64,000 nt of DNA, from NCBI GenBank assembly GCA_024274785.1, contig JAJSAM010000004.1, positions 1-64,000 of the forward strand, in the 5' to 3' direction. The position numbers and the translations under genes are program-made. Below are positions 53,328 through 55,262 of this stretch, piece after piece. Position 1 is the stretch's first letter; the number at the start of each line of letters is the position of its first letter. The DNA is from Planctomycetota bacterium (GTDB lineage: Bacteria; Planctomycetota; JAJSAM01). Under the pieces are notes generated by a model. That model was not told the DNA's origin and did no database searches. It was given only the letters and a program-made list of their open reading frames with translations.

Positions 53328-54314
53328 CTACCTGCGAATCGTCACCTTCGTGCCTCGCGGGATCCAGCCGAACAGCTCTTCCACATCGCGGTTCCGCATG
53401 CGGACGCAGCCCTGCGAGACCGACGTGCCTACCGTGTCCGGTTCATCGGTGCCGTGGATGCCGTAGCCCGCCGCCCGCCGGGTGTTGGCGAAGCCCAGCC
53501 AACGCGTACCCAGAGGGTTCTCAGAACTTCCATACGGGATCCTGCGGCCATCGAAGTACCAGTCGGGCTTCTCGATCTTCGTCTCGACCTCGAACACACC
53601 TTCCGGGGTCTTGTCGTTCAGGCCAAGCCCAACGGGGAACTCCCTGAGATAAACACCGCCCAGCAAAACCCAGAGCTTGTGGCGGCGCTTGGAGACGAGC
53701 AGGGAGAGTTCCTCGAGCGGCACCTTGAAGATCTGCCCCTCACGAATCCGCCGCGCGTCCGCGACACCGTTCAGCCACAGCAGGAAGCCCGGCTCCACCT
53801 TGACTCGATACTGCTTCGGAAAGACCTTGTTGCAGAGGGTCCAGAGCCGATCGTTGGCCTTGAAGGAGTAGATCGCGGTCTTCCCCGGCAAGACCTCCTC
53901 CGAGTCCAGCAGGAGATCGTTCAACTCGTCCAGGCGGACTCGAAGCGCGTCACCCTTTCCCTCGATCGCAAGGCGCAGGTACGCGTCCGAAAACGCTCGC
54001 CGCGCCGCATCGAGTTCCACGTTGGCCTTCGCCCGGGTGGTCGCCTTTTTCGATCGCACCAGGGCGGCCTCGGCATCCGCGACCAGCTTCTCGAGGGAAA
54101 CCACGTCCGGTGCAGCCTGACCCCCCGCAGGCCCACCCGCTCCGCGCGTCCCGGCGGGATCCCCCCCACTCTCCGCAGCAACCGGCTGAGGGGCTTCACC
54201 GTTGGCGGAAAGCAATGTCGAATCAACAGCTCCGGGGTCGTCGTCGCCGCCGAACACGGAAATCGCACCATAAACGATTCCGATCAGGATCAAGAGGTAC
54301 AGGAGGTACCGCAT
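53328..54314 (-). CDS. LysM + L,D-transpeptidase (YkuD) protein
   Basis: YSFKANDRLWTLCNKVF LysM-like; YkuD GIHGTDEPDTVGTSVSQGCVRMRNRDVEELF. Confidence 0.85.
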   Translation of the reverse strand: MRYLLYLLILIGIVYGAISVFGGDDDPGAVDSTLLSANGEAPQPVAAESGGDPAGTRGAGGPAGGQAAPDVVSLEKLVADAEAALVRSKKATTRAKANVELDAARRAFSDAYLRLAIEGKGDALRVRLDELNDLLLDSEEVLPGKTAIYSFKANDRLWTLCNKVFPKQYRVKVEPGFLLWLNGVADARRIREGQIFKVPLEELSLLVSKRRHKLWVLLGGVYLREFPVGLGLNDKTPEGVFEVETKIEKPDWYFDGRRIPYGSSENPLGTRWLGFANTRRAAGYGIHGTDEPDTVGTSVSQGCVRMRNRDVEELFGWIPRGTKVTIRR

Positions 54315-54584: not shown

Positions 54585-54620
54585 AATAAAATTAACCGGC
54601 GCCCCCAGGGGAGCGCCGGT
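54585..54620 (-). terminator. Intrinsic terminator of the ncRNA candidate
   Basis: ACCGGCGC...GCGCCGGT followed by TAATTTTATT on the minus strand. Confidence 0.7.
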
Positions 54621-54757
54621 CTGATTTCGAGCCCTCCACCGCAATGCCGTGCGGCGGGGGAGTGAATGAACCCTCTTGCGAGGTGGGCGCCAATGCCGGC
54701 TGGAAGTCATCCTCTCGAGGAGGCTCGACACCCTTCCGACAAGTCCGGCTCCCCTGT
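54585..54757 (-). ncRNA. Candidate structured small RNA with intrinsic terminator (family unknown; 6S-like is one possibility)
   Basis: Long-range pairings GGGGAGC/GCTCCCC and TCGAGCCTCC/GGAGGGCTCGA enclose hairpins incl. CCTC-GCAA-GAGG; ends ACCGGCGCTCCCCTGGGGGCGCCGGTTAATTTTATT. No convincing ORF. Confidence 0.45.
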
Positions 54758-54831
54758 TCATATGTTATCGGTTCACCAAACTCCTGCCGCCATCACGAAC
54801 ATGGCAGAGATCTCAGAAACCAATCTAACAC

Positions 54832-54864
54832 AGCCCCCCCGGTCGGGCAAGCGACCGAGGGGGC
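54832..54864 (-). terminator. Terminator-like hairpin after rplT
   Basis: AGCCCCCTCGGTCG-CTTGCC-CGACCGGGGGGGCT on the minus strand. Confidence 0.65.
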
Positions 54865-54899
54865 TGCGAAAGAATCGTCCGCGCGGCTCCGGACCGGGA

Positions 54900-55262
54900 T
54901 CAGGCGCTGGCGGAGAGAGCTTCCCGGGAGACCTCCACCAGGCGGTCAAACGCGCCCGGGTCGGTGACGGCCAGATCGGCCAGGGCACGGCGATCGACCT
55001 CCACGCCGGCCTTGATCAGTCCACCAATGAAGACGCTGTAGGTGACACCACGCATGCGGGCGGCGGCATTGATCCGCTCGATCCACAGACGGCGGAAGTC
55101 CCGCTTCCGTTCCTTGCGGCCAATATAGGCATAGCGCATGGAACGAGCGATGGTCTCCTTCGCGGTCCGCAGCAGCTTCGACCTGCCGCCGACACCACCC
55201 TTCGCCGCCTTGCGGATACGGCGCTTCTTCTTCGCCCTTGGGACGTTGGTCTTGACTCTCAT
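54900..55262 (-). CDS. rplT: Ribosomal protein bL20
   Basis: MRVKTNVPRAKKKRRIRKAAKG...LWIERINAAARMRGVTYSVFI. Confidence 0.95.
   Translation of the reverse strand: MRVKTNVPRAKKKRRIRKAAKGGVGGRSKLLRTAKETIARSMRYAYIGRKERKRDFRRLWIERINAAARMRGVTYSVFIGGLIKAGVEVDRRALADLAVTDPGAFDRLVEVSREALSASA

Follow-up and report, generated by a model that had tools for sequence, protein, structure and literature searches.

The minus-strand interval between rplT and an L,D-transpeptidase gene in the analysed window (the whole stretch of 64,000 nucleotides, from a Planctomycetota bacterium) almost certainly holds a real, conserved structured RNA, identified here as 6S RNA (ssrS) and encoded by an ordinary gene that is present as a single copy in this planctomycete genome. 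6S RNA is already known and no new mechanism is involved; such mild surprise as there is concerns taxonomy only. The boundaries of the RNA and of its two neighbours are given below.

54627-54815, minus strand: 6S RNA (ssrS), from the RF00013 match at 54813-54629 together with the R1 match.
54900-55262, minus strand: rplT (ribosomal protein L20), the upstream neighbour (PF00453, 133.8 bits).
53328-54314, minus strand: L,D-transpeptidase gene (YkuD domain), the downstream neighbour (PF03734, 86.3 bits).

The 64 kb window was searched with Rfam covariance models, a scan that the sequence-only reading had itself proposed along with a check for compensatory changes in homologues. RF00013 (6S / SsrS RNA) matched at 54813-54629 on the minus strand with 66.1 bits (E 7.7e-11) against a curated gathering score of 46.4, and the match ran end to end over model positions 1-187 of 187, as is expected of a member of the family. 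The phylum-built model R1 gave 124 bits at 54815-54627 on the same strand, the window sequence itself being among those from which R1 was built. The 6S RNA body would be about 185-190 nt long, with its 5′ end near 54815. The sequence-only reading had correctly placed its candidate between rplT and the L,D-transpeptidase gene and had rightly taken it for structured RNA, and the interval that it drew (54585-54757) has a fold more stable than expected by chance (−85.2 kcal/mol, z −3.58); its 5′ boundary was wrong, the first ~58 nt having been missed, and at the other end the downstream terminator was included.

The minimum free energy fold of the full RNA (54820-54622) is one closed rod of −87.7 kcal/mol (z −3.1), consisting in order of a closing stem, a central bubble with a small hairpin in its 3′ strand, an upper stem and an apical hairpin. 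When the Rfam structure was mapped onto the sequence, 44 of the 47 drawable Rfam pairs were standard pairs. The closing stem, large central bubble and terminal stem-loop that characterize 6S RNA were thus found as a single rod in both the fold and the Rfam pairs, with the following parts.

54795-54812, minus strand: 5′ arm of the closing stem, from the mapped Rfam structure and pairing in homologues.
54631-54650, minus strand: 3′ arm of the closing stem, on the same basis.
54672-54683, minus strand: CCUC-GCAA-GAGG hairpin in the 3′ strand of the central bubble, by alignment the counterpart of the E. coli 6S CCUUGAACCAAGG hairpin.
54710-54721, minus strand: apical hairpin UCCU-CGAG-AGGA, from the minimum free energy fold and aligned helix 7.

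The two tetraloop hairpins in this list had been picked out from the sequence alone and are genuine parts of the 6S structure. A third local hairpin proposed with them, CGCCGCA/TGCGGTG, is absent from the full fold; it forms in the shorter interval only because the 5′ arm is missing there, both segments being paired with the 5′ arm in the full fold.

Covariation was assessed in a plain MAFFT alignment of 28 members from the phylum. The 6S structure had 75.2% of cells paired (68.0% in shuffles), 130 cells with changes on both sides (71.8, sd 7.5, in shuffles) and a covariation score of 0.256 (0.158 in shuffles); none of 500 shuffles reached these values, and all control versions in which the structure was slid scored lower. 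Changes on both sides were seen in 29 pairs of the structure, including all four pairs of helix 7, the apical hairpin, and closing-stem helices 1 and 2 were 88% and 94% paired with compensatory changes present, as expected where a 6S structure is preserved among homologues. The pair counts lean towards the 6S structure because the homologues were gathered using 6S models. Support is weaker in the upper half, where helices 4 and 5 have 52-56% of their cells paired; looseness of the MAFFT alignment in this region accounts for part of the weakness. RNAalifold, run on the same loose alignment of 28 rows, recovered mainly the closing stem, and the Rfam structure was therefore mapped instead. When the 63 phylum members, among them the window, were folded singly, 62 formed at least eight closing-stem pairs, and the mean z was −3.5.

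A different architecture had been proposed in the sequence-only reading, in which a long-range pairing GGGGAGC/GCUCCCC and a nested inner pairing, UCGAGCCUCC/GGAGGGCUCGA, enclose the local hairpins, so that the RNA would be either a stand-alone species with a 6S-like closing stem or a terminator/antiterminator switch. The first option holds insofar as the end-to-end Rfam match makes the RNA 6S; its closing stem is 54812-54795/54650-54631 and not GGGGAGC with the terminator arm. Under the second, the L,D-transpeptidase gene would have a leader that acts as a switch, with the 5′ GGGGAGC competing for the terminator arm GCUCCCC. All quoted bases and complementary words are present in the sequence, and a leader of this kind would suit the co-oriented transpeptidase gene that lies a comparably short way downstream of the RNA in several families. 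Against this, a fold made to contain GGGGAGC/GCUCCCC is worse by 9.6 kcal/mol for the interval and by 18.3 kcal/mol for the full transcript (20.3 kcal/mol there when the inner pairing is forced as well), the probabilities of this pairing in the full fold are 0, and by the Rfam alignment GGGGAGC belongs to the 6S upper stem. The inner helix, which of the two long-range pairings is the one open to testing in the alignment, does not covary in the homologues beyond shuffles, unlike the 6S structure: 51.6% of its cells are paired compared with 52.2% in shuffles, of which 359 of 500 reach the observed value. In some relatives, moreover, it is rarA and not the transpeptidase gene that adjoins the RNA. 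A switch calls for conserved helices that exclude each other and are similar in energy, a terminator being one of them; no such set was found among these pairings, and we consider a switch extremely improbable. The words in question had been matched to the terminator arm and to a 3′ arm left unpaired because the 5′ part, with which the 3′ end forms the closing stem, was missing from the interval.

The signals flanking the 6S gene are consistent with an independent transcript.

54845-54850, minus strand: −35 element TTGCCC, inside the post-rplT hairpin.
54822-54827, minus strand: −10 element TAGATT with TG one base upstream (extended −10); 8/12 hexamer matches, spacer 17.
54831-54866, minus strand: hairpin resembling a terminator, downstream of rplT and overlapping the 6S promoter (read from the sequence).
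54594-54621, minus strand: intrinsic terminator for the 6S transcript, separate from the 6S structure; 12-pair stem followed by the T-rich tail AATTTTATTG.

The promoter-like site is of the sigma70 type (TTGCCC, 17 nt, TAGATT) and ends 6 nt ahead of the model start. A score of at least 8/12 was found at the equivalent place in 38% of 63 genomes, compared with 2.5% of 1201 control positions; a generic promoter scan did not report the site because its cut-off was 9/12. As the −35 element sits within the post-rplT hairpin, rplT termination and 6S initiation share DNA. An Rfam P37 match over the rplT terminator was rejected, being below the cut-off and merely a hairpin. The classic intrinsic terminator noted in the earlier reading is real, and in the fold of the transcript that includes it the 6S rod and the terminator hairpin form separately; similar hairpins occupy the corresponding position in the family's two other genomes (G001 and G002). 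The closing stem runs straight into a U-tract in 25 of 63 phylum members, as though this stem served as the terminator; others, the window among them, have a separate hairpin. From these signals the 6S gene is probably transcribed as a stable RNA, for which about 180-200 nt is expected in this family of RNAs and which would start from its own sigma70-type promoter (54850-54822) and end at the dedicated terminator (54621-54594).

The 5′ edge of the central bubble carries a candidate start site for product RNA (pRNA).

54767-54774, minus strand: GAACCGAU, predicted pRNA start with template U at 54767, by alignment with E. coli GAGCCGAU.

When the RNA was aligned with E. coli ssrS, GAACCGAUA lay opposite E. 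coli GAGCCGAUA, and the start motif expected at the bubble edge of a 6S RNA is therefore in place as a motif; among the relatives, CCNAY was found in 55 of 63 and CCGAU in 32 of 63. The E. coli pRNA start, which we take to lie within the aligned motif, gives a predicted pRNA start of AUCGGUUCACC here. The predicted pRNA (5′ AUCGG) has GG at positions 4/5, and pRNA with GG at these positions has been described (PMC8414754). The 6S RNAs of E. coli and B. subtilis resemble an open promoter, tie up the sigma70-type holoenzyme and come free when polymerase copies them into pRNA (PMC8414754, PMC10406553). By analogy with these species, the central bubble would imitate an open promoter and the RNA would bind the housekeeping-sigma holoenzyme as growth slows, keeping polymerase off promoters; for release, polymerase would copy the bubble into a short pRNA beginning opposite U54767. 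Polymerase binding, pRNA synthesis and growth-phase control are all inferred from that likeness. RpoD, the expected partner of 6S RNA, is encoded in the genome (TIGR02393, 371 bits), as are three more sigma-like proteins. The latter would leave room for a 6S-like RNA that binds another form of the polymerase, either with another sigma or as the core enzyme, as does Ms1 of Actinobacteria, which is related in structure to 6S and yet binds core polymerase (PMC9130861). The window RNA, unlike Ms1, is a full-length RF00013 match above threshold and retains both the bubble and the pRNA start motif seen in the E. coli RNA, so that binding to another polymerase form is judged very unlikely.

Compared with E. 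coli K-12 ssrS, the 6S RNA of the window is alike in length, in the end sequences of the closing stem, in the apical stem, in GA-CCGAUA at the bubble edge and in CACCU, hairpin, GGGUUC on the opposite strand, whereas the upper stem differs in sequence. The surroundings also differ: in E. coli, fau (5-formyltetrahydrofolate cyclo-ligase) lies 75 nt downstream of ssrS, whereas the gene described here has a separate terminator and is flanked by rplT and the L,D-transpeptidase gene. 6S is found beside rarA in lactic acid bacteria and B. subtilis (PMC8414754). The same arrangement, with rarA (MgsA) directly downstream of 6S, occurs in six other families of Planctomycetota (L091, L121, L124, L088, L109, L098), but the window's family has the L,D-transpeptidase gene in that position instead.

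For the gene neighbourhoods, one representative of each neighbour cluster was named by Pfam and the rest were assigned by BLAST clustering. In eight families of the phylum (L111, L112, L115 and L122 among the loci) pheT lies directly upstream of 6S, preceded by pheS and, where the stretch reaches, rplT; 6S thus follows an rplT-pheS-pheT run. In the window's family pheST is missing at the 6S locus, with pheS on another contig (G000:C17), so that rplT adjoins 6S. Downstream, an L,D-transpeptidase gene on the same strand lies within ~320 nt of 6S in fifteen genomes from seven families, and a convergent YjeF_N gene often comes next after it. This order may reflect coupling, in which read-through or processing of 6S helps to set transpeptidase expression on entry into stationary phase, an idea that we hold to be improbable; if true, it would tie polymerase control to cell-wall remodelling.

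Among the rplT-bearing contigs scanned (20, mostly from other phyla), a 6S match was found in L031 and L057 only. L031, a Planctomycetota bacterium, has an rplT 68% identical to that of the window and a 6S match of 120.8 bits, the score also obtained for the same-family genome G002. In L057 (Candidatus Eisenbacteria, outside the phylum) a match of 58.5 bits lies at 2095-2280, ~0.8 kb downstream of rplT.

In the window's order, every one of the nine genomes (G000 to G008) carries 6S, with one copy each. The Rfam search of 149 relatives found 6S in 64 genomes, and more than half of the genomes searched gave no match either in this search or with the phylum-built model. For Thermogutta, 6S was concluded to be probably absent (PMC5673643), and the same paper cites its reported absence in two related species, Pirellula staleyi and Rhodopirellula baltica. 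Limited sensitivity may account for some of the reported absences, since certain members, such as G001 of the window's own family, escape the Rfam search but are picked up by the phylum-built model. With the model built from 28 sequences, 6S RNA was found in 68 of the 149 relatives, a result that does not bear on the named species with reported absence, and on this count 6S RNA is widespread in Planctomycetota.
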